Assembly (NCBI GenBank): GCA_021768625.1
Contig: JAETUM010000021.1
Coordinates: 1 to 46,255, forward strand
DNA: 46,255 nt
Source of the DNA: Candidatus Stoquefichus sp.
Lineage (GTDB): Bacteria > Bacillota_I > Bacilli_A > Erysipelotrichales > Coprobacillaceae
Direction of reading: 5' to 3'
Position 1 is the stretch's first letter, and every line of letters starts with the position of its first letter. A program made the translations under genes and the position numbers. Positions 12,258-45,223 of this stretch are shown one piece after another. The notes below the pieces were generated by a model. It saw only the letters and a program-made list of their open reading frames with translations. It was not told where the DNA came from and ran no database searches.

Positions 12258-12510
12258 AAAATAAGAAAGCGATGAAGAGAAGAGTAACTTATCACGAATG
12301 AATAGAGAGTTCTTGGTTGGTGGAAAAGAATCAGGAAGGATGAGTGAAGATGGTCTTGGAGCTGGATGACTGATATGTAAGTCATCACGTGTACACCCGT
12401 TAAAGTGTAAGAGTCTGATGGGACTCGATAAGGTTATGATTGTGAAGTCATAATGAAATTAGGTGGTAACACGTTAACTCGTCCTATGTTAGGGATGGGT
12501 TTTTTATTTA
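12258..12510 (+). ncRNA. T-box riboswitch leader of metY, probable Met specifier
   Basis: A stem I region begins with the GATGAAGAGA...AGTA element (about 12271-12285) followed by AGAGAG and GGTTGGTGGAAAAG. The candidate specifier is ATG at 12350-12352 in GAAGATGG. Further hairpins are GATGACT/AGTCATC (12365-12386) and GAGTC/GACTC (12411-12426). The T-box core TTAGGTGGTAACACG is at 12459-12473, with UGGU (12464-12467) able to pair with an ACCA tRNA end. A terminator stem at about 12478-12499, with a bulge, is followed by TTTTTT. Uncharged tRNA-Met would allow readthrough. The T-box call is firm; the specifier reading is less so. Confidence 0.88.
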
Positions 12511-12533: not shown

Positions 12534-13835
12534 ATGACATTCGTAAAAAGAGAAGACAGAAAATTAAAATTTGAAACATTACAATTACATGTAGGACAAG
12601 AAAGTCCAGATTCAGCTACTGATGCAAGAGCTGTACCTATTTATCAAACAACTTCATATGTGTTTAAAAATAGTGAACACGCAGCAGCAAGATTTGGTTT
12701 AGCGGATGCTGGAAATATTTATGGAAGATTAACAAACAGTACACAAGATGTTTTTGAGTCAAGAGTAGCAGCATTAGAAGGGGGAGTTGCTGGATTAGCT
12801 GTAGCTTCTGGTGCAGCGGCTATCACTTATGCATTGATTGCATTAGCTAAAGCAGGAGATCATATAGTTTCAGCCAAACAAATCTATGGGGGATCATTTA
12901 ACTTATTATCTCATACATTAAAAGATTATGGTATTGAGACAACATTTGTTGATGGCGATGATCCACAGAATTTTAAAACTGCATTACAGGATAACACAAA
13001 GGCTATTTTTATTGAGACATTAGGAAATCCAAATAGTAGTATTATTGATGTAGAAGCAGTTTCTAAAATTGCTCATGAACATAAAATTCCATTAGTTATT
13101 GATAATACATTTGCAACACCATATTTGTTTAGACCAATTGAACATGGTGCAGATATTGTTGTTCATTCAGCAACAAAATTTATTGGAGGACATGGAACAA
13201 GTTTAGGTGGCGTTATTGTAGATAGTGGAAAATTTGATTGGGAAGCATCAGGAAAATTTCCACAATTAACAACACCTGATCCATCATATCGTGGTGTTAT
13301 TTTCACCAAGGCTGTAGGGGCTGCTGCCTATGTAACAAGGATAAGAGCTATTTATTTAAGAGATACAGGAGCAGCTATTTCTCCATTTAATGCATTCTTA
13401 TTATTACAAGGATTAGAAACATTATCATTAAGAGTAGAAAGACATGTTGAAAATGCTTTAAAAGTAGTTGAATATTTGAATAATCATCCTCAAGTTGAAA
13501 AAGTGAATCATCCATCATTAGTAGATTCAAAATATCATGAACTCTATCAAAAATATTACCCAAATGGAGCGGGATCAATTTTTACATTTGAAATTAAAGG
13601 AGGAGCAGATGAAGCAAAGAAATTCATTGATTCATTAGAAATCTTTTCATTACTTGCTAATGTTGCAGATGTAAAATCATTAGTTATTCATCCAGCAAGT
13701 ACAACACACTCACAATTAACTGAAGAAGAATTAGAAGATCAAGGTATTAAACTTAATACTATTCGTTTATCAATAGGAACAGAGAATATTGATGATATTT
13801 TATTTGATTTAGAAAATGCCTTTGAACAAATATAG
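12534..13835 (+). CDS. metY: O-acetylhomoserine sulfhydrylase (MetY-type)
   Basis: 433 residues from ATG 12534, which has GGAG at 12521-12524. The open frame extends upstream to 12453, but those 27 codons translate the T-box core and terminator and are not part of the protein. Cys/Met-metabolism PLP enzyme motifs: [48 protein letters not shown] (Schiff-base Lys), RLSIGTEN near the end. MetY makes homocysteine from O-acetylhomoserine and sulfide, or cysteine from O-acetylserine. Control by a T-box and by the nearby Rrf2 regulator is likely. Confidence 0.93.
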
Positions 13836-15462: not shown

Positions 15463-15867
15463 AAGCATCAAATAGATATTGAAAGATTTCTACTTCTATA
15501 TTGGATATCTATTGAATAAAAACAAAAGAAGTAGGTATATGATTAGTCATATCAAAGTATTTATAAAGCTCATATTTTAATGATTTAGTTTTCATATAAA
15601 TAATAAATTTTACTGTATCAATTAGAAACAGTTTACGAGAATGAATGAAACTGACCTTCAAGATTATAAATCAATTGATTACGAAGTTCATTGAAACAAT
15701 ATATCATCATTGTCAATAGTCAAAAGAAAAAACAGGGGATTGTTTTCATTTGTAACCCCTGCTTTTCTTGATTTCTTAACTTAATAACATAGTTCTAAAT
15801 CACTTATACTTGTTTTGATTTCTTTTATGTTGAAAACCTCTTTTTTCCGTTTTATTGCTATAAAATT
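15463..15867. other. 405-base gap between cysK and the PTS operon
   Basis: No convincing gene. Two interleaved inverted repeats lie directly after cysK: AATAGATAT (15471-15479) with ATATCTATT (15505-15513), and CTACTTCT (15490-15497) with AGAAGTAG (15527-15534), which is pseudoknot-like. The middle part (15540-15720) is featureless AT-rich sequence. The PTS operon terminator follows. Confidence 0.6.
15722..15765 (-). terminator. Terminator of the PTS operon
   Basis: CAGGGG (15733-15738) pairs with CCCCTG (15756-15761). Read leftward the stem is followed by TTTTTTCTTTTG, a strong leftward terminator. Rightward it is followed by CTTTTCTTG and may also act on readthrough from cysK. Confidence 0.85.
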
Positions 15868-17652
15868 CTAAACTTTTAATAGCAATTCTTTTGCTGTGAT
15901 ATCATGTGATTTAACATCTTCTAAATCTTGATTTCCAACAAAAATAATAGGTGTTGTTAAGTCAATATTTTTATCTTCAATAATTTGAGTATTAAATTCA
16001 AGTAATAATTGACCAGCTTGAACCTTTTCTCCTTGAGCAACATGAAGTTTAAATCCTTCACCTTTAAGATTTACAGTATCAATACCTACATGAATTAATA
16101 TTTCGTGATTATATTTATCTTTTAAACCAATTGCATGCTTTGTTGGATATAGAGAAACAATTTCTCCATCAAAAGGGGCATATACTTTATTATCAGATGG
16201 AATAATGGCAAATCCATTACCTAATGTTTTTTCTGCAAATACTGAATCATTAACTTCTGACAAAGGAATTATTTTTCCAGATAGTGGTGCTAAGAAAGAG
16301 ATAGATGATGATTTTCCAACAAATATCTTAGTACAGATTACTCCAACAATAATCTGTATTAAGAAAACAATACATGAGGTAATAAAACTTCCATTCATTT
16401 CTACACACGATACAGTAAATACTGTTGCCATTGAAAATGCTGTTGCTTTTGTTCCTAGTAATCCAGCCAAAGCTCCACCTAATGCACCAGAAATTGCCAT
16501 AGGAATAGCAAATTTTTTATTTCTTAATACATATGAATAAAGAGTAGGTTCTGAAACACCACCAAATAATGCAACAACACTACATGATATAGCAAGACTA
16601 CGTTCCTTTTTATTTTTAGAAATAAGAATAGCTCCTAATGCAATAGCTATATAAGAAATACAAGCACACCACCAATAACCAAATAATGTTGAATATCCAT
16701 TCAATGCAAATTCATTTAAACAAATTGCTGTAATAACCCAATGTACTCCAGAAATGACTAAATAATTCATTGCCACACCAATAAAGATACCAGCAATAAT
16801 TGGACTTATACTATTAATACTGTTAAATAAGTCTCCTACAAAATTACCAATATAATAAGCAATTGGTCCAAAAAGAATGGCAGTTAATGGAACAAAAATT
16901 GCTAAACAAATAGCAGGGTTAAAAACTCCAGCAATTGAACTAGGTATTTTCTTTTCTAAAAATTTCCATAAGAAAGAATATAACCATGTTGAAAGTAAGG
17001 CAGGAATTAATGACGATGTGTAACTAAACATCATAACAGGAATCCCAAAGAAATCAACAATATCTCCTGTATTTTTCATTAATCCTGAAAAACTTGGTTC
17101 CATTAAAGCAGCAGAAATACAAGCAGCAATAAATGGATTAACTTCTAATTTCTTTGCTGCAGAAAAAGCGACTAATATAGGTAAAAAATAGAATACAGCA
17201 TTGGATGCAGCGTTTAATATAGCATATGTTGAACTTTCAACATTCATCATATTAAACTGTGTTAATAATATTAATAGACCTCTAATCATAGAGCATCCAA
17301 TAAGTGCTGGAATTAATGGTGTCATTGTTCCAGAAATAAAGTCAAGAAAAGCATAACCAAAATTTTTGATTGATTTTTTCTTTTTGATGGTTGATGTTGT
17401 TTTTATTTCACCAATTTCTGATTGAACAATAGGATAATATTTAATAACATCTCCTCCAATAATAATCTGACATTCATTACCTACGATATTTATACCTAAA
17501 ACACCTTCTATTTTTTCAATGTTTTCTTTTTGAATGATTTGTGTATCTTTTAATTGAAAACGTAATCTTGTAGCACAATGAGATACTTGATTAATATTAG
17601 ATTTACCTCCAATGTTTTTTAAGATACTTTTTACGTTTTTTTGTATACTCAT
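15868..17652 (-). CDS. bglP: PTS beta-glucoside-type transporter, EIIBCA
   Basis: 594 residues in the order IIB-IIC-IIA typical of BglP/BglF. IIB: VSHCATRLRFQLKD with phosphocysteine C26. IIC (about 100-450): ten or so membrane segments with GGVSEPTLYSYVLRNK, the substrate-site glutamate motif. IIA (about 470-594): HEILIHVGIDTVNLKGEGF with the phosphohistidine, and VAQGEKVQAGQLLLEF. It takes up and phosphorylates a beta-glucoside or related sugar. It lies 12 bases after licT and is the last gene of the operon. No 6-phospho-beta-glucosidase gene is present nearby, so the sugar is unknown. Confidence 0.9.
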   Translation of the reverse strand: MSIQKNVKSILKNIGGKSNINQVSHCATRLRFQLKDTQIIQKENIEKIEGVLGINIVGNECQIIIGGDVIKYYPIVQSEIGEIKTTSTIKKKKSIKNFGYAFLDFISGTMTPLIPALIGCSMIRGLLILLTQFNMMNVESSTYAILNAASNAVFYFLPILVAFSAAKKLEVNPFIAACISAALMEPSFSGLMKNTGDIVDFFGIPVMMFSYTSSLIPALLSTWLYSFLWKFLEKKIPSSIAGVFNPAICLAIFVPLTAILFGPIAYYIGNFVGDLFNSINSISPIIAGIFIGVAMNYLVISGVHWVITAICLNEFALNGYSTLFGYWWCACISYIAIALGAILISKNKKERSLAISCSVVALFGGVSEPTLYSYVLRNKKFAIPMAISGALGGALAGLLGTKATAFSMATVFTVSCVEMNGSFITSCIVFLIQIIVGVICTKIFVGKSSSISFLAPLSGKIIPLSEVNDSVFAEKTLGNGFAIIPSDNKVYAPFDGEIVSLYPTKHAIGLKDKYNHEILIHVGIDTVNLKGEGFKLHVAQGEKVQAGQLLLEFNTQIIEDKNIDLTTPIIFVGNQDLEDVKSHDITAKELLLKV

Positions 17653-17664
17653 AAGTTAAACCTC

Positions 17665-18507
17665 TCATTTTTCCTTTTCTAAATTTTCTAAATGTAATGT
17701 GAGATAAATGACTTCATCATTAACAATCTCATAATTATATTTGCTGATAATATAACGTTTCATTGCTATTGCACATGAGTAAGGGAGTTTATAATTCTCT
17801 TTAACAAATTTTGCTAGTTTTTGATCATATGTAGAATTTATCTTTTGATTATTGATAATACGTAATGCAAAATACTTTAAATGTGTAATAAATCTTGTAT
17901 ATGTATATGAGTTGACTTTTAATTCAATATTCATTACACGACGAACAATATTGACCAAATCATCAACAATTTGAATAGAGGTAATTGTTTCATTCATATT
18001 GTTAGAATTGAGATTGATAAGATGAGTAGCTATAAATGCAATCTCATCATCATTTAATGCGATTTCATATTTTTCTAATAATACTTTTTTAGCAAATATA
18101 CTTATATTAAATTCAGTTTGATAAAACATCTTAATTTCATTTGTAAGAGCATTTCTTAAATAAAGACCTTTCTTTAAACGATGAATTGTTTCATAAATGT
18201 GATCTGCTAGTAACATAACTGCGTTAATTGAAATAAAATTAATAATTTCTTTTTGCTTTTTTTCTTTTTCTAATAATGTACTTGATAATTCTAAAATATC
18301 TTGTGGTATTCTGTCGTAGACATTACGTATTTCATCAAAACCTGCATTATCTAAGACATACCTTTTTAAATCACAATAAGTATTTTCATCAATAATTGAA
18401 TTATTTTTATTTTTAAATCCTATTCCTCTTGCAATAACAATAATTTCATTATTTGAATTATCTAAGGCGATAACAACATTATTATTTAATACTTGTTTGA
18501 TATACAT
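17665..18507 (-). CDS. licT: BglG/LicT-family transcriptional antiterminator
   Basis: 280 residues. CAT RNA-binding domain (1-55: MYIKQVLNNNVVIALDN and ARGIGFKNK), then two PTS regulation domains with all four conserved histidines at about H103, H162, H209 and H272. It binds RAT hairpins in nascent RNA and prevents termination when phosphorylated at PRD2 and not at PRD1 by the cognate EII, so it reports sugar presence and energy status. A RAT/terminator lies at the operon front (20561-20622) and a RAT-like element directly upstream of licT (18540-18564). The ribosome binding site AGGG lies in a possible helix with upstream sequence. Confidence 0.92.
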   Translation of the reverse strand: MYIKQVLNNNVVIALDNSNNEIIVIARGIGFKNKNNSIIDENTYCDLKRYVLDNAGFDEIRNVYDRIPQDILELSSTLLEKEKKQKEIINFISINAVMLLADHIYETIHRLKKGLYLRNALTNEIKMFYQTEFNISIFAKKVLLEKYEIALNDDEIAFIATHLINLNSNNMNETITSIQIVDDLVNIVRRVMNIELKVNSYTYTRFITHLKYFALRIINNQKINSTYDQKLAKFVKENYKLPYSCAIAMKRYIISKYNYEIVNDEVIYLTLHLENLEKEK

Positions 18508-18513
18508 ACATTT

Positions 18514-18575
18514 CCCTACTTTCTTTTAAATAAATATATGGTTTTGCTAAAAATATGACAAGCCTTCGAGTAGGG
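18514..18575 (-). promoter_or_regulatory. RAT-like element enclosed by a helix covering the licT ribosome binding site
   Basis: On the minus strand, GGCTTGTC...AGCAAAACC (18564-18540, 25 nt) resembles the LicT RAT, with the same ends as the RAT at the operon front but a shorter centre. It is flanked by CCCTACT (minus, 18575-18569) and AGTAGGG (minus, 18520-18514), a perfect 7-bp pair whose second arm contains the licT Shine-Dalgarno AGGG. No T run follows, so this is not an intrinsic terminator. LicT binding here could affect translation of licT; this is a hypothesis. Confidence 0.55.
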
Positions 18576-18586
18576 ATATATTCTTT

Positions 18587-20527
18587 CTATAAGCTAGCGC
18601 CTAGGAAATATCCTTCTGTTACTGCTTCGGTAACAGAAGCTACTCTTTTACAATCACCAACATAACGTGTTTCTGGAATAATATCAAAGTATTGATAGAC
18701 TGCTTTGATATCTTGTTGGTATCCTACAGCAATAATAAATTCATTATGTGGAACTGATAATATCTTATCTTTAGTTTTAACAAGACAAGCTTTCTTCATA
18801 ATTTCAATACATTGACTTTCTGTCATAATATGAATACGTGGGTGATTAAGAATATGTTGAAGTAAACTAACACGATAAAGTTCATTCCCATTTTTAGCTA
18901 AAGTGTTACTTGTTTCAATCAAATTGACATCTTTTCCCATGTTTGCAAGTTCTAAAGCAATTTCACAGCCAATGCTTCCAGCACCAAGAATTGTTGTGTT
19001 TTGTGAAGCATGTTCAAAACCACGATCAAGGAAATCCGTAGCCATAAGAACATTGTCACAATCAATTCCTTTTATTTTTGGAACTATAGCTTTTGCTCCT
19101 ATTGCAATAATTAAAACATCTGGTTGTTCTTTCTGAATTAATTCTTTTGTTGCAATTGTACGAAGTATAAGCTTTATTGAACTTTTTTTCACTTGATTTC
19201 TTAAATAGTGTAGATATGAAGCCAAATCCTGTTTGAGTTTACCTTTTGTTGCTTGTATTAAAGCACCACCAATATCATCATTTTTGTCAATAATAGTAAC
19301 ATGATGTCCTTTTTCGTATGCAGTAAGTGCTGTTTTTAATCCCGCTGGCCCAGCTCCAATAATAACAACTTTTTGAGGATGATCTGTTTTTTCTAATTTT
19401 AATGGGACTCTATTTTCTCGATAAATTCTTGGATTAACACTACAACATGTATTAAAATGCTCTGTTGCAATATGATAACAATTATTACATCTAATACATG
19501 GAACAACATCATCTTCCTTGCCCGCTAATATCTTTTTTGGCATGTAAGGATCAGCAACGATAGAACGTCCAATAAGTATTAAATCAGCAACATTATCAGC
19601 GAGCATTTTTTCGGCTTCATCTAAATTCATTATGGCTCCACTTACATTAACAATAACTTGGCATGTTTCTTTTATTTTTTTTGCAACTTCATAATTGAGC
19701 ATATGTTTTTCAAAAATTGGTGGACATAATTTAACGTTTCCATCATGATATTCATCCATTCCTGTAACAATATTAACAATATCAATTTTATTTTCTATTG
19801 CTTTTAAGAATTTAAGCATTTCATCAAATGAATAGGTTTCTTCCACTCCAAGAGTTGCACTTATTCTTAGTTCTAAAACAAAATGATCTCCAATTGCTTC
19901 TCGAATTTTATCAACAATGATATGAGCTAAACGGAAACGATTTTCATAGCTACCGCCCCATTTATCTAATCTGTGATTAAAACCTGGTGCCATGAAATGT
20001 CCAACAATGTTATCATTACTAATATCCAGTATGAGCAAGTCAAAGCCAAATTGGCTTGCTTTTGTTGCTTTTTCTACAACTGTATCTATAAGTTTTTCCA
20101 TAATTTCTTCACTCATGATTTTTGTTGGTCTTGTATGTGGTCTGGCAAATGGTAATCCAGAGGGTGTATATATCTCTCCTTCATAGACATTTCCCATTCC
20201 AACTGCAAATCCCGCTAATGCTCCACCTTGTTTGACTACAGATAAAGATTCACGTAAAACATCTAAATTATATTTACTAAATGGGTTAGCTCCATTTGCT
20301 TCGTATAAAGATGATCCAGCTGTTCCATGATACATCATTCCAATCATAGCAACACCACCTTGTGCTTTATCATAAATTCCTATTCCTCCATAGTTAGTTG
20401 AGGATAAATGAATATGTGTAGGAACTGTTGACATAGTTGTGGAACAAAGTCGATTATTGTAAATAATATTTTTTACCCTTAAGGGTTGAAAAACATGTGC
20501 ATATTTTTTATATACATGATTTTTCAA
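18587..20527 (-). CDS. Old-yellow-enzyme-type NADH:flavin oxidoreductase with FeS and FAD domains (2-enoate/dienoyl-CoA reductase-like)
   Basis: About 646 residues from a TTG start (20525-20527) preceded by GGAGG. The frame is open upstream to 20632, but that part is the RAT/terminator leader. Domains: OYE FMN barrel (about 1-340, ending ILIGRSIVADPYMPKK), a [4Fe-4S] cluster motif CIRCNNC with later Cys residues before SVNP, then FAD (VVIIGAGPAGLKTAL) and NAD (TTILGAGSIGCEIALELA) Rossmann domains. The usual HGAH-x-Y active-site stretch is replaced by DISNDN, while HRLDKWGGSYENR is kept. It is first in an operon with licT and a PTS permease, suggesting reduction of an unsaturated group on or derived from the imported glycoside. 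Confidence 0.87.
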   Translation of the reverse strand: MKNHVYKKYAHVFQPLRVKNIIYNNRLCSTTMSTVPTHIHLSSTNYGGIGIYDKAQGGVAMIGMMYHGTAGSSLYEANGANPFSKYNLDVLRESLSVVKQGGALAGFAVGMGNVYEGEIYTPSGLPFARPHTRPTKIMSEEIMEKLIDTVVEKATKASQFGFDLLILDISNDNIVGHFMAPGFNHRLDKWGGSYENRFRLAHIIVDKIREAIGDHFVLELRISATLGVEETYSFDEMLKFLKAIENKIDIVNIVTGMDEYHDGNVKLCPPIFEKHMLNYEVAKKIKETCQVIVNVSGAIMNLDEAEKMLADNVADLILIGRSIVADPYMPKKILAGKEDDVVPCIRCNNCYHIATEHFNTCCSVNPRIYRENRVPLKLEKTDHPQKVVIIGAGPAGLKTALTAYEKGHHVTIIDKNDDIGGALIQATKGKLKQDLASYLHYLRNQVKKSSIKLILRTIATKELIQKEQPDVLIIAIGAKAIVPKIKGIDCDNVLMATDFLDRGFEHASQNTTILGAGSIGCEIALELANMGKDVNLIETSNTLAKNGNELYRVSLLQHILNHPRIHIMTESQCIEIMKKACLVKTKDKILSVPHNEFIIAVGYQQDIKAVYQYFDIIPETRYVGDCKRVASVTEAVTEGYFLGASL

Positions 20528-20560
20528 TGTTATAACACCTCCATTTTTATTTTTCCTTGA

Positions 20561-20622
20561 AATAATAAAAAGCCCTGCACTATAAAAGTACAAGGTTTTG
20601 CTAACAAGTGTTATAACAAGCC
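20561..20622 (-). promoter_or_regulatory. RAT antiterminator and overlapping terminator
   Basis: Minus-strand GGCTTGTTA...TTAGCAAAACC (20622-20594, 29 nt, the canonical RAT length) is followed by a terminator hairpin: CCTTGTAC (20595-20588) with GTGCAGGG (20580-20573), then CTTTTTATTATT. The RAT and the terminator share the CC at 20595-20594, so forming one excludes the other. This is the standard LicT mechanism and places the whole operon under licT. Confidence 0.87.
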
Positions 20623-20646
20623 TTTTAGACAATTTATTATAATTAC

Positions 20647-20675
20647 ATGATATATAAAACGAATTAATTTGTCAA
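20647..20675 (-). promoter_or_regulatory. Promoter of the flavoprotein-licT-bglP operon
   Basis: Minus strand TTGACA (20675-20670), 17 bases, TATCAT (20652-20647). The start point would be near 20640, leaving a leader of about 110 nt that contains the RAT/terminator. Confidence 0.75.
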
Positions 20676-26925: not shown

Positions 26926-29016
26926 ATGAAATTAATGAAAATATGTTTAGCGTTATTAACAACAATTTCAATGGTTTCTATTTATTCAGTTAATGCCTTA
27001 AGTGATGAATTTGAATATGAATTACTAGATAATGGAACAATTGAAATTCAAGGTTATGATGGAGAAGACACAAGTATAACTGTTCCAGCAAAAATAGAAG
27101 GAATATCAGTTGAAAGTATAGGAGATGATGCTTTTTCATGTTATGATACTCTTACAGATATTACAATTTCTAATGGTATTAAAAATATAGGAAGTTCAGC
27201 ATTTAGTGATTGTACGAGTTTGGAAAGTATATCCATTCCAAAAAGTGTGACAAGTATAGGAGACTTTGCTTTTTATCGATGTGAGAGTTTAACAAGTATA
27301 AAAATTCCAGAAAAAATAAAAATGATATCAGAATATATGTTGAGTGAATGTAGTAGTCTTAAAAGTGTAACAATTCCTAACAGTGTCACAAGTATTGAAG
27401 AAGGTGCTTTTGATTGTTGTAGCAGTTTAACAACGATAATAATTCCTAACACTGTAACAAAGTTAGGAGACTATGCTTTTAATGGGTGTACAGATTTAAA
27501 AGAAATAACAATTCCTAGTAGTGTTACAAGTATAGGAGAATCTGCATTTGATAGTTGTGAGAGGCTTACAGATATCACTATTTTAGGAAATATAAAAAGT
27601 ATATCGGACTATACTTTTAGCGATTGTACACGTTTGAAAAACATTACAATTCCTGATAGCGTTATAAGCATAGGAGAGGGAGCATTTGAAAATTGTAGCT
27701 ATTTATCCAGTATGATTATTCCTAAAAATATCACAAACATGGGAGAATCTGCATTTGACAGTTGTGAGAGGCTTACAGATATCACTATTTTAGGAAATAT
27801 AAAAAGTATATCGGACTATACTTTTAGTGATTGTACACGTTTGAAAAACATTGTAATTCCTGATAGCGTTACAAGCATAGGAGAGGGAGCGTTTGAAGGT
27901 TGTGCTAGTTTAACAAGTATAATCATTCCTAAAAGTGTTACAAGTATAGGAGAAGATGTATTTTATGATTGTCCTCAACTCATATTGAAGGTCTATCCAA
28001 ATTCTTATGCACTTAAGTATGCTAAAGAGAATAGTATTCCATATGAAATAATAACAACATCAGCTTCGGCAGTTCAATTAGATAAAACATCTTTATCATT
28101 ATATATTGGAGAAAGTAAAGCATTAACTGCTACAATCACACCAAGTGATGTAACAGATAAAACATTAATATGGACTTCAAGTGACCCAAGTATTGTGAAA
28201 GTTAATTCTAAAGGTCAAATAACAGCATTATCAAAAGGACAAGCTATTGTTACAGTCAGAACAAGTAGTGGAAAAGAAGCACAATGTTCTATTACAGTTA
28301 TAGCTCCTATTACTTCTGTAAGCTTAAACCAAACAACTCTTACATTAAGTAAAGGAAATATGTATACATTAATAGGAACTATTAGTCCTAGTGATATAAC
28401 AGATAATAAAGTTTTAAGCTGAAGTTCAAGTAATACAGATATTGTACAAGTTGATGAAAATGGAAATGTTACAGCGATATCAGAGGGACAAGCTATCATT
28501 ACAGTTAAAACAAGCAATGGAAAAGAAGCACAATGTTTTATTACAGTTATAGATCCTATTGTGAATATCCCTATAACTTCCATAAGTTTAAACCAAAAAA
28601 ATCTAACGCTAGATAAAGGAAATACATATATATTGATTGGGACTGTTTATCCTAATGATACAACGGATAGTCAATTACTAAGTTGGAGTTCAAGTGATTC
28701 TAGTATTGTAGAAGTTGATTCAAATGGTAAAATTACAGCACTTTCAAAGGGACAAGTTATCATTACAGCAAAAACAAGTAATGGATTGATGACAACTTGT
28801 ACAGTTACAGTAAAAGATACGCAAATAAATATATCTAATGATGAAGAAAGTAACAAACCTCATTCTTTAATACATAAAGATAAAACACCAGTATTAAATA
28901 ATGTTAAGACAGAGGATAAAACAAATATTATCATATGGTTAGAATTGATTATGGGAAGTTTGATTATACTTGTTTATGCAAATATAACAAAAAACAAAAA
29001 AATGAATAGAAATTAA
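26926..29016 (+). pseudogene. BspA-like LRR / Big_2 surface protein gene interrupted by an in-frame TGA
   Basis: A signal peptide (1 to about 25, ending VNALS) is followed by 14 or so LRR_5 units of about 23 residues (I-P-x-S-V-T-S-I-G-x-x-A-F), then three Big_2 Ig-like domains and a C-terminal membrane helix (IIIWLELIMGSLIILVY) with a basic tail. The frame is open from 26926 to 29016 except for TGA at 28420-28422 (codon 499), where sister domains have the conserved Trp of WSSSD. The sequence on both sides is well conserved, so this is a single recent nonsense change, a sequencing error, or a readthrough site. Without readthrough the product lacks its anchor and would be secreted. Such proteins often bind host or bacterial surfaces. 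Confidence 0.85.
27534..27947 (+). repeat. Tandem 207-bp duplication inside the LRR region
   Basis: The segment starting at about 27534 recurs 207 bases later (from about 27741) with only a few base changes. 207 bases equals 69 residues or three LRR units, so the duplication keeps both frame and repeat register. Confidence 0.85.
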
Positions 29017-33264: not shown

Positions 33265-33391
33265 AAAAGATTGAACATGAAAATAGTATAAAATAATTTT
33301 ATATAATTAAATATGTTGTAACAATGACTGATAAAAAAATAGTGGATATGTATGACTTAAAATCATGAATAGAAAGGAAAATGGAATTAAA

Positions 33392-34468
33392 GTGAAAAAA
33401 TTATTAGTAATAGTATTAACAGTATCAATAATGCTAGGAGTACCAACGATAACAAATGTGAATTCATATATAAGTGTTCAAGATGTTTATGCAGCAGTAA
33501 AAATAAACAAGAAAACTGCTAGGGTTTTAAAAGGAGAGAAAATAACATTAAAGATAACAGGTACAAAGAAAAAAGTAATTTGGTTATCAAATAAAAAATC
33601 TATTGCTACAGTTAATAGTAAAGGTGTTGTTACAGGAAAGAAAAAGGGAACTGCAACAATTACAGCCAAAGTAGGAAATAAAAAATATACATGCAAAGTT
33701 ACAGTAGAAGTGCCAGTATTAAATAAAACCAGTATTACAATTTATACTGGGAAGTCATATCAATTAAAGTTAAATGGAACACAGCAAAAGATAACATGGA
33801 GCAGTTCTAATAAATCAATAGCAACAGTCAATAGTAAAGGGAAAATAACTGCTAAAAAAGTTGGAACAACATATGTTAAGGCAAAAGTTCAAGGAAAAGT
33901 ATATAGTTGTAAAATCAATATAATAAAAGATGTTACATATAGTATAAAAAAGGACAATAATCTAAATAAAGTGATTAATAGATTAAATAGTTATTGTGTT
34001 GCAGAGTCGGCAAATAAGCCTCAAACAAAAAATACCGAAATTAAATTATCAAATAAAAATATGATTTCGATCGCTTCGTATGTTAGATATAATTTTAATA
34101 ATGACGAGACATTTACAAAAAATGAACTTGTTAATACAGTAAAACTTTTATTTGGTAAGTCAATTACTAACATAGAATTAGGAAATTGGATTCGAAAGGC
34201 TATTTCATATGACTATACAAGTGATCCATATGTTTATGCAGGAGGAGATTGGGGAAATTATTGTGCAAAATATAATATTTTAAAAATTATAGAAACTTCA
34301 AATAATGTGTACAAAATAACAATTGATGGAAATATGTATTGTTATGAAACAGGGAAGATGAAAAAAATATGTACAGTTAATCTATATATCAAAAAAAGCA
34401 GTCAATCGAGTTATGGTTATATTGTAACAAAATGTAATTATAAAGGTACAGGAGTAGGATATTTTTAA
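33392..34468 (+). CDS. Secreted Big_2-domain paralogue with a different C-terminal domain
   Basis: About 358 residues from a GTG at 33392, which gives the same MKK-type signal peptide as the neighbour; an in-frame ATG at 33365 has no ribosome binding site. The signal peptide and two Big_2 domains (to about residue 175) are nearly identical to the preceding gene, including long identical DNA. The C-terminal about 180 residues (RLNSYCVAESANKPQ ... NWIRKAISYDYTSDPYVYAG ... GYIVTKCNYKG) are unrelated to the first protein and not recognised. It looks like a shared carrier with exchanged tips. Confidence 0.78.
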   Translation: MKKLLVIVLTVSIMLGVPTITNVNSYISVQDVYAAVKINKKTARVLKGEKITLKITGTKKKVIWLSNKKSIATVNSKGVVTGKKKGTATITAKVGNKKYTCKVTVEVPVLNKTSITIYTGKSYQLKLNGTQQKITWSSSNKSIATVNSKGKITAKKVGTTYVKAKVQGKVYSCKINIIKDVTYSIKKDNNLNKVINRLNSYCVAESANKPQTKNTEIKLSNKNMISIASYVRYNFNNDETFTKNELVNTVKLLFGKSITNIELGNWIRKAISYDYTSDPYVYAGGDWGNYCAKYNILKIIETSNNVYKITIDGNMYCYETGKMKKICTVNLYIKKSSQSSYGYIVTKCNYKGTGVGYF

Positions 34469-36171: not shown

Positions 36172-36228
36172 AAGTTAGCAACTTACTTTGAAGTAGCAAA
36201 TATTTCAAGGCGGAAGGAGATAAATAAA

Positions 36229-42658: not shown

Positions 42659-42799
42659 TGAAATGATTATATATCATCAACATTGAAATATAATTGAGAT
42701 GTAGTCATGATATGAAAGTCTTTTGTCCAATAAAATTAAATAATTTTACTTTCTTTAAAGCGATAAAAGAGTTAAAATAAAAATGTAAGGAGGATGACT

Positions 42800-45223
42800 A
42801 TGAAATCAATAAAAATTATTTTATCATTTTTATTAACTATATCACTTATGACATTGAATATTTACTCTGTTCAGGCAGAAACAAATAGTGATGAGGTTAC
42901 TGAAAAACATAAATTATTACCAGAACGTGAAAGGATTCCAGATCCTAAGAGTGATGCTTCCGTTTTACCAAGAAGAGGGGCTAGTCTTCCAACAACATAT
43001 AGTTCTGTAGATAAAGGATATGTGACAAGTGCTAAAGATCAAGGGAATTGTGGAACTTGTTGGGCATTTGCAGCATGCAGTGCTGCAGAAACTTCTTTAA
43101 TAAAAAAAGGAATAAAAACTAAGGATAATGCAGATTTATCTGAGGCGCATTTAGCATATTATTTTTATAATACATTCCCAGATTACTATGGAAATACAAA
43201 TAATGATGAAACAAACGCATTAGCAGACATTTTTTATAATAATGGGGGAAATCATATTCTTACAATTCATGGAATTGATAACTTTGGTTTTGCGAATGAA
43301 TCAGTATTCCCTTATGGTCAAATCAAAAATGCTAGTAATTTTTCATCACAGGCAAATCAATATAATACATCTTATATTCTAAAAAATGCATATAATCTTG
43401 ATTCACAAAATAAAGCACTTATTAAACAAGCTATTCAAGATTATGGTAGTGTTGTTGCTATGTATTATAGTGCTACTGATGAAAATTATAATGAAAAATA
43501 TTATAATACAACAAATGGTAAAAAATCATATTATAACCCAGAAAAAATAACAATGACAAATCATGCTATTACAATTGTTGGATGGGATGATAATTTTAGC
43601 AAAAATAACTTCTCTTCAGTTGCTTCAGAGAGACCACAAAATAATGGGGCTTGGTTAGTTAAGAATAGTTGGGGAGAAAATTGGGGTAACAACGGTTACT
43701 TCTGGATGTCATATGATGAAGTATCATTATGTAATACATGTGTATATGATGTTGATGTAAAAACAAGTAATGAAATTTATCAGTATGATGGTTCTGCATC
43801 ACCATATTTGAATTCACATTACATCAATGAAGTAACAATTGCCAATGTTTATAAAGCAAAGAATACAAGCACTACAAAATCTCAAAAATTATCAAGTGTT
43901 TCTTTTGGGACAGAAACTGAAAATGTTGGATATACAATAAAAATATATGGACATTTAACAAATACATCTCAACCAACATCTGGAGCTTTACTAGCAACTC
44001 AAACTGGAAAAACAAAATATGTTGGAATGCATAATGTTAAATTAAACAATACTGTTTATTTAGGGAATGCATCAAGTTATTCAATTGTTATTACATTAAG
44101 ATCATTGAATAATGATGGAATTTCTTACTGGACTGACGAGACAGCTGGATTCTCATGGATTGATTTTATTAATGATACAAGCAAAGATTATAGTTATGTA
44201 AATGAAGGATATGGTTGGGTTAAACTCACAGATTCAACAGTCAGAATAAAAGGATATGCTGAAACTGTTGATAAAACAAATATTTATGGTAAGACATTCT
44301 CATTATCAAAATGCACATATACAGGTTCACCATTAAAGTCTAATGTTGTTGTGAAAGATAATGGAAAGCTTCTTGTTAAAGATAAAGATTATAGACTCAC
44401 ATACTTTAATAATACAAAAGCTGGAACAGGATATGTTGTTGTTACTGGTATTGGAAATTATGCTGGAACAAAGAGATTAGCATTTACTATTGATAGAAAG
44501 AATATTTCCACATTAACATATTCAAAAATAGCTAATCAAACATATACAGGAAAACAAATTAAGCCAAGTATTGTTGTTAAAGATGGTAACAAGACACTAC
44601 AAAAAGATGTGGATTATACAGTATCTTATGGAACAAATAAAGCAAGTGGTAAAGGAACTATAAAAATCACAGGAAAAGGTAACTATACAGGAACAGTTAC
44701 AAAAACGTTCACAATTGCAAAACGTAATGTATCCACATTAACATATTCAAAAATAAGTAATAAGTCTTATACAGGAAAACAAATCAAACCAAGTATAACT
44801 GTTAAATATAATGGAAAGACTTTAACAAAAGGAACAAGCTATACAGTTAGCTATGGAACAAATAAGGCAACAGGAAAAGCAACAGTCAAGATTACAGGAA
44901 AAGGAAATTATACAGGAAGTGTTACAAAGACATTCTATATTGTTCCAAAGAAAGTATCTACACCAACACTAAAGGCTGGTAAGAAATCTATAACAGTGAA
45001 ATATAAAAAAGTGACAGGAGCAAGTGGATATCAAATTGCCTATCAAAAGAGTGGAAGTAAGAGTTGGACATATACAACAGTATCAAGTAAGAGTGCATCA
45101 AAGACACTCACAAAACTAACAAGCAAAAAGAATTATAAAGTGAAAGTAAGAGCATATAAGACAGTAAGTGGTAAAAAGTACTATGGAACATATAGTGCTA
45201 CAAAGACCGTAAAAGTCAAATAA
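42800..45223 (+). CDS. Secreted papain-family (C1) cysteine protease with MBG repeats and Fn3-like tail
   Basis: About 807 residues from the ATG at 42800, 6 bases after AAGGAGG; an ATG at 42794 is too close to it. A signal peptide (to about 26, SVQA) and a short pro-region are followed by the C1 domain (about 60-320): Gln81 and Cys87 in DQGNCGTCWAFAAC, His255 in TNHAITIVGW, Asn289 in VKNSWGENWG, so the catalytic set is complete. A beta-rich domain (about 325-490) follows, then three MBG-like repeats of about 74 residues (494-717, YTGKQIKPSI and ITGKGNYTGT) and a C-terminal fibronectin-III-like domain (718-807). There is no LPxTG motif. It is likely an extracellular or wall-associated protease. 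Confidence 0.92.
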   Translation: MKSIKIILSFLLTISLMTLNIYSVQAETNSDEVTEKHKLLPERERIPDPKSDASVLPRRGASLPTTYSSVDKGYVTSAKDQGNCGTCWAFAACSAAETSLIKKGIKTKDNADLSEAHLAYYFYNTFPDYYGNTNNDETNALADIFYNNGGNHILTIHGIDNFGFANESVFPYGQIKNASNFSSQANQYNTSYILKNAYNLDSQNKALIKQAIQDYGSVVAMYYSATDENYNEKYYNTTNGKKSYYNPEKITMTNHAITIVGWDDNFSKNNFSSVASERPQNNGAWLVKNSWGENWGNNGYFWMSYDEVSLCNTCVYDVDVKTSNEIYQYDGSASPYLNSHYINEVTIANVYKAKNTSTTKSQKLSSVSFGTETENVGYTIKIYGHLTNTSQPTSGALLATQTGKTKYVGMHNVKLNNTVYLGNASSYSIVITLRSLNNDGISYWTDETAGFSWIDFINDTSKDYSYVNEGYGWVKLTDSTVRIKGYAETVDKTNIYGKTFSLSKCTYTGSPLKSNVVVKDNGKLLVKDKDYRLTYFNNTKAGTGYVVVTGIGNYAGTKRLAFTIDRKNISTLTYSKIANQTYTGKQIKPSIVVKDGNKTLQKDVDYTVSYGTNKASGKGTIKITGKGNYTGTVTKTFTIAKRNVSTLTYSKISNKSYTGKQIKPSITVKYNGKTLTKGTSYTVSYGTNKATGKATVKITGKGNYTGSVTKTFYIVPKKVSTPTLKAGKKSITVKYKKVTGASGYQIAYQKSGSKSWTYTTVSSKSASKTLTKLTSKKNYKVKVRAYKTVSGKKYYGTYSATKTVKVK

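Follow-up and report, generated by a model that had tools for sequence, protein, structure and literature searches.

What would a flavoenzyme of the old yellow enzyme (OYE) type do in an operon whose only other genes encode a LicT-type antiterminator and a phosphotransferase system (PTS) permease resembling those for beta-glucosides? This question is raised by a three-gene unit of Candidatus Stoquefichus sp. (assembly GCA_021768625.1, contig JAETUM010000021.1), found in a stretch of 46,255 nucleotides that is called here the window. The first-pass annotation of this DNA had described a promoter, a ribonucleic antiterminator (RAT) element with a terminator, the flavoprotein gene, a second RAT-like element, licT, the permease gene and a terminator, and had remarked on the absence of a glucosidase. 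We located every one of these elements on the minus strand and in that order, from the promoter through RAT1/terminator, flavoenzyme, RAT2, licT and EIIBCA to an inverted repeat with a T-run (Table 1), and no glycoside hydrolase family 1 (GH1) gene lies within the three-gene operon. The best explanation, to which we give slightly better than even chances, is a cargo-induced "uptake-and-reduce" operon.

The three-gene unit and its control elements

Across the 2.92 Mb genome the pattern GGNTTGTNA-N(5-20)-GCAAAACC turns up just twice, each time in this operon, and its reversed control does not turn up at all. In G005, a genome of another genus of the same family, the exact pattern occurs at only two sites, which both belong to the orthologous operon; two Mediterraneibacter metagenome-assembled genomes (MAGs; Lachnospiraceae) each have it at RAT1 only. 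Since the exact motif is confined to its own operon in all four carrier genomes, LicT very probably serves no other operon, and a LicT-controlled glucosidase elsewhere in these genomes appears unlikely from their sequence. When up to two mismatches were allowed, candidate further targets in G000 and G005 were about as many as in reversed-pattern controls. A one-mismatch site in G000 before the gene of a hexosaminidase-like secreted protein (family read from sequence) was rejected as indistinguishable from chance.

RAT1 keeps its five lower and four upper stem pairs, with differing loops, across three diverged loci (the window, G005 and Mediterraneibacter), and its 3' end overlaps the terminator at 20595-20573, an overlap also conserved in the three loci. 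Together with the exact pattern, this conservation bears out the LicT/RAT control that had been proposed for the operon. LicT itself contains the domains PF03123 (CAT_RBD) and PF00874 (PRD, in two stretches), and scores 225.5 bits against the NCBIfam equivalog NF046042, under the cut-off of 300. Its His-containing PRD motifs begin at positions 100, 159, 206 and 269, which, by the positions of B. subtilis LicT, we take to be the known PRD phosphorylation sites. Upstream, this region has no more promoter-like matches overall than its shuffles do (31 against a mean of 36.8), and the 17-base spacing of the candidate promoter is also read 5' of RAT1 in the orthologous loci L044 (G005) and L064 (Mediterraneibacter). 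A hairpin at 18639-18613, terminator-like in the scan, was dropped as a part of the operon because it falls within the conserved last part of the flavoenzyme coding sequence. The repeat at 15762-15727 is missing from the scan list since its loop exceeds the length allowed.

RAT2, the second element, has its lower and upper stems fully paired in two loci; it is conserved in L044 and absent from the 22-base gap of L064, and the terminator scan finds no terminator behind it. RNA folding places RAT2, in the window and in L044, within a helix of 8-10 bp that pairs the Shine-Dalgarno sequence of licT with a probability of about 1, a value matched by 2/500 and 13/500 shuffles, respectively. The stop codon of the flavoenzyme gene lies about 10 bases 5' of this helix. 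Both E. coli and B. subtilis are reported to have RATs without terminators (PMC12502629). A likely role of RAT2 would be feedback on licT translation, or coupling of licT to the translation of the flavoenzyme gene.

The OYE-licT-EIIBCA order is not confined to one strain, and one of the refuting conditions set by the first-pass annotation is thereby answered. It was found in G005, with identities of 81/81/80% for the three products, and in the two Mediterraneibacter MAGs, with 66/57/70%; a search of other genomes thus shows that it recurs in a second genus and a second family. Only unrelated genes surround these orthologous operons. The G+C content is 29% in the window operon and 45% in that of Mediterraneibacter, where it is close to the 48% of the flanks, so the Mediterraneibacter operon does not have the look of a recent arrival. 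A wide spread in the Lachnospiraceae was discarded: at E <= 1e-110 a match is seen in the query genome alone among 397 sampled genomes of that family (0/396 others). In agreement with the claim that the glucosidase is missing, no linked 6-phospho-beta-glucosidase was found in the unit and no RAT-controlled one in the four carrier genomes. About 18 GH1 genes lie elsewhere in the genome of the window.

Table 1. Parts of the operon, with positions in the 46,255-nucleotide window
Feature	Positions	Strand	Basis
Candidate sigma-A-type promoter, TTGACA-N17-TATCAT	20647..20675	-	11/12 matches, best promoter-like match of the region
RAT1, LicT-type antiterminator hairpin GGCTTGTTATAACACTTGTTAGCAAAACC	20594..20622	-	Exact pattern match and stem conservation
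Leader terminator, 9 bp stem (20595-20573) and T5	20567..20595	-	Scan; folding -11.5 kcal/mol
OYE / 2,4-dienoyl-CoA-reductase-like flavoenzyme, 646 aa, TTG start	18587..20527	-	Pfam PF00724 and PF07992, AlphaFold2 model, structure matches
RAT2, shortened RAT GGCTTGTCATATTTTTAGCAAAACC, between flavoenzyme gene and licT	18540..18564	-	Exact pattern match
Predicted helix of TCCCTACT (18576-18569) with AGTAGGGA (18520-18513), enclosing RAT2	18513..18576	-	RNA folding
licT, BglG-family antiterminator, CAT RNA-binding domain and two PRDs, 280 aa	17665..18507	-	Pfam
PTS EIIBCA, divergent beta-glucoside-type subfamily, 594 aa	15868..17652	-	Pfam EIIB, EIIC, EIIA_1
GC-rich inverted repeat with T-run, terminator-like, 3' of EIIBCA	15727..15762	-	Read from sequence

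The flavoenzyme and its relatives

The flavoenzyme most likely starts at the TTG at 20527, which follows a GGAGG Shine-Dalgarno sequence; the listed start of the open reading frame (ORF), 20632, is too early. Its Oxidored_FMN (PF00724) and Pyr_redox_2 (PF07992) domains correspond to an FMN barrel and an FAD/NAD domain, and the AlphaFold2 model has a pLDDT of 93.3. The best solved matches are 2-naphthoyl-CoA reductase (6qkg), 2,4-dienoyl-CoA reductase (DCR; 1ps9) and the trimethylamine and histamine dehydrogenases. Against curated models it scores 307.1 for BaiCD (cut-off 825) and 286.7 for the long form of bilirubin reductase (cut-off 750). A kinship with the flavone reductase FLR was weighed and dropped, as the paper on FLR treats it as a class apart from OYE.

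Many flavoenzymes of about 33-47% identity are found across Erysipelotrichales genomes. A 72-sequence tree brings the PTS-linked ones together (4 changes, compared with 7.6 for shuffles, 0/500 being as low); nearly all of them fall into two groups of the tree, which we refer to as the clade. Linkage to PTS or GH1 genes is seen in 40/47 clade members against 5/24 other homologues (Fisher p 1.6e-7, uncorrected for shared ancestry). The transporters vary among a glucose-type EIIBCA, separate EIIA/EIIBC with LicT, and cellobiose-type IIA/IIB/IIC with an MtlR-like activator; as the PTS types differ within the clade, the link between enzyme and PTS outlasts transporter swaps. The 4Fe-4S cysteines C344, C347, C350 and C362 are invariant in the clade.

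The nearest relative past the four orthologues (46-47% identity) belongs to locus L092, with the order OYE-IIA-IIB-IIC-unknown-GH1. In G586, G601 and G551 an IIC-IIA-OYE unit is flanked by genes for an alpha-L-rhamnosidase and an aldo/keto reductase, and distant clade members adjoin GH1 genes of the 6-phospho-beta-glucosidase type. These GH1 and alpha-L-rhamnosidase neighbours favour glycosides as the cargo of the clade, although such gene proximity is not proof for this operon.

Other arrangements were observed among the relatives. Four loci (L046, L047, L061 and L094) have at least two OYE-like genes around a GH1 gene, an arrangement that suggests multi-step reductive glycoside catabolism. 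L054 (G005:C6) and L052 (G021) are OYE-PTS-LicT loci with two or three Gfo/Idh-type dehydrogenases and GH1, L054 having a glyoxalase-like protein in addition. A protein family of about 350 aa stands next to GH1 and OYE genes at L047:10115-12228 and L092:3367-4449; no match to it was found in Pfam (two L047 copies and L092) or in NCBIfam (one L047 copy and L092). G005 has 47 GH1 matches in its 3.6 Mb genome, an unusually large set.

Proposed mechanism and alternative readings

In the uptake-and-reduce explanation, LicT without cargo would be held inactive via phosphorylation by its EII, as we infer by analogy with known antiterminators of this type. EIIBCA would import and phosphorylate a sugar or glycoside, and LicT would then be released, bind RAT1 in the leader and prevent termination, so that its own three-gene unit would be switched on. 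The flavoenzyme, carrying FMN, 4Fe-4S and FAD and probably fed by NADH, would act on the PTS cargo, reducing rather than oxidising either the phosphorylated cargo or an aglycone released from it by a GH1 enzyme whose gene lies outside the operon. For the substrate, the leading guess is a plant glycoside, and it is a tentative one.

Several observations weigh against this explanation, and the first concern the active site. In all four orthologues Asp168/Asn171 replaces the ene-reductase His pair, a known feature of OYE enzymes which in the YqjM type binds the substrate carbonyl; most other clade members retain the His-His pair. Asn173 occupies the site of Tyr166, which is catalytic in DCR (PMC10769871), and Tyr is found at this site in 0/47 clade members against 12/24 other homologues. 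Because the canonical Tyr and His are missing, C=C reduction and an electron-sink role can be proposed only conditionally. BilR, however, has Arg at the Tyr site and yet reduces C=C bonds (PMC10769871), so that ene-reduction by the flavoenzyme would still be possible despite Asn173. The structural neighbours also include dehydrogenases, such as trimethylamine dehydrogenase, and this bears on the direction of the reaction. In this sense, the earlier assignment to OYE/enoate-reductase-like proteins holds for family, fold and cofactor domains, but not for the Tyr and His of typical ene-reductases.

The permease raises further difficulties. EIIBCA is an EIIB-EIIC-EIIA fusion with the EIIB Cys and EIIA His motifs in place, and its best family is the beta-glucoside IIABC model TIGR01995, against which it reaches 549.2 bits, under the cut-off of 614.7. 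The Mediterraneibacter orthologue reaches 532.4 bits, and the GH1-linked EIIBCA of a relative (L155) passes with 703.5 bits. The nearest EIIBCA without an OYE gene, in G041 (54% identity), has a partial licT with a RAT in front of it. A gene for a NagA-like deacetylase lies about 640 bases past this EIIBCA, behind degenerate sequence and on a contig of 3.9 kb. Given the score under the cut-off and the NagA-like gene near the closest relative, EIIBCA is, by its sequence, a distinct subfamily, for which "beta-glucoside PTS" denotes family resemblance and not specificity. The label given by the first-pass annotation is therefore kept for the family and the fused architecture only. Its idea of a glycoside substrate gains from the GH1 and alpha-L-rhamnosidase genes beside distant clade members, and loses from the divergent permease and its NagA-like neighbourhood. 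Finally, the other carrier genomes also hold several to many GH1 genes, whose enzymes could act in trans.

In the view originally taken of the locus, the flavoenzyme would reduce the unsaturated aglycone of a plant beta-glucoside, for detoxification or as an electron sink; the aglycone would be freed in trans by one of the many GH1 6-phospho-beta-glucosidases of the genome. We regard it as possible, with chances well below even. The abundance of GH1 genes in all carrier genomes, the GH1 gene in the L092 operon and the alpha-L-rhamnosidase beside enzyme and PTS in G586, G601 and G551 agree with it, whereas the RAT motif stands at no GH1 gene, EIIBCA falls outside the curated beta-glucoside set and the canonical ene-reductase residues are missing.

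Alternatively, the flavoenzyme may act on the sugar part itself, such as an unusual or amino sugar 6-phosphate; the PTS cargo would then be a monosaccharide derivative and no glycosidase would be needed. A hydrolase-free three-gene unit that is stable over two bacterial families would fit this possibility, as would the NagA-like gene close to the nearest OYE-free EIIBCA relative, but the distance, degenerate sequence and short contig noted above reduce the value of that neighbour, and many clade relatives keep GH1. We consider it rather unlikely. Improbable too, as a broader proposal, is that a PTS-dedicated OYE-like subfamily of the Erysipelotrichales acts on the phosphorylated glycosides or sugars themselves, the PTS-imported compounds thus serving as electron acceptors in place of their hydrolysis or ahead of it, with LicT also repressing its own translation via RAT2 in the core operon.

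Even less probable is a dehydrogenase, similar to trimethylamine or histamine dehydrogenase, by which the glycoside would be oxidised after import, for instance in preparation for cleavage. The CxxCxxC spacing of the flavoenzyme is as in histamine dehydrogenase, both dehydrogenases are close structural matches and the proton donor of ene-reductases is lost; nevertheless, it is reductases that match best in sequence and fold, and C=C bonds are the target of the gut relatives characterised so far, namely BilR, steroid 5beta-reductase and BaiCD (PMC10769871, PMC12238238). That the flavoenzyme gene merely landed before a licT-EIIBCA pair is very improbable and largely refuted by recurrence: G041 does have a licT-RAT-EIIBCA pair, and no OYE orthologue was found in that genome, but here RAT1 and the promoter lie 5' of the flavoenzyme gene, which is thus the first to come under LicT control. 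In addition, four genomes retain the unit, and the linkage across the clade is strong.

Neighbouring features and comparison with known systems

Elsewhere in the window, all on the plus strand, an ammonium transporter is fused to its own PII signalling domain (PF00909 and PF00543; 22490-24178), and a T-box leader (116.8 bits; 12263-12489) precedes genes whose products, named from sequence, are a pyridoxal phosphate-dependent sulfhydrylase-like protein, an Rrf2-type regulator and a cysteine-synthase-like protein. As the listed ORF start at 12453 falls within this leader, the real start is probably near 12534. An L31-Firmicutes ribosomal protein leader (36186-36219) is barely above the gathering score. 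Three surface-type proteins are a BspA-like leucine-rich repeat protein with Big_2 (26926-28422), a protein with Big_2 repeats (33365-34468) and a papain-family protease with a lectin-like domain (42794-45223).

Gut OYE-type reductases are being assigned singly, with bile acids, bilirubin and steroids as their substrates, and as a rule neither the route of substrate entry nor the inducer is known. The clade described here brings its own sugar importer and antiterminator, and inducer, cargo and enzyme become testable together. If one compound induces the RAT leader, enters by EII and is changed by the enzyme, this would be new chemistry in the use of glycosides in the gut. Among open-access papers on OYE or ene-reductases with PTS, LicT or Erysipelotrichaceae, none was found to report the present pairing. 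The operon is a variant of the known LicT/RAT PTS type, and the enzyme clade seems to be undescribed.

With the LicT/BglG-controlled bgl operons (B. subtilis bglPH, E. coli bglGFB, S. mutans licT-bglP and C. acetobutylicum bglGTH) the unit has in common a CAT-PRD-PRD antiterminator, a RAT/terminator overlap, a fused glucose-type EII and an autoregulated operon. It differs in that the OYE-like flavoprotein replaces the 6-phospho-beta-glucosidase, LicT and EIIBCA stay under the curated family cut-offs, and a second RAT without terminator lies in a helix covering the licT ribosome site. The gut reductases BaiCD, BilR and steroid 5beta-reductase (ci2350), and their fold relative E. coli FadH, share with the flavoenzyme the FMN barrel, the 4Fe-4S cluster and the FAD/NAD domains; it differs in scoring far below the curated cut-offs for BaiCD and long-form BilR, in having Asn instead of Tyr or Arg at the Tyr166 site and in being linked to PTS genes. 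The closest solved structure by sequence and fold, 2-naphthoyl-CoA reductase, is about 25% identical, and this operon gives no sign of CoA substrates or of a CoA pathway. Finally, RAT2 resembles the terminator-free target RATs of BglG and LicT in E. coli and B. subtilis (PMC12502629) in overlapping no terminator, and differs from them in lying within a predicted helix by which the ribosome site of the antiterminator's own gene would be masked.

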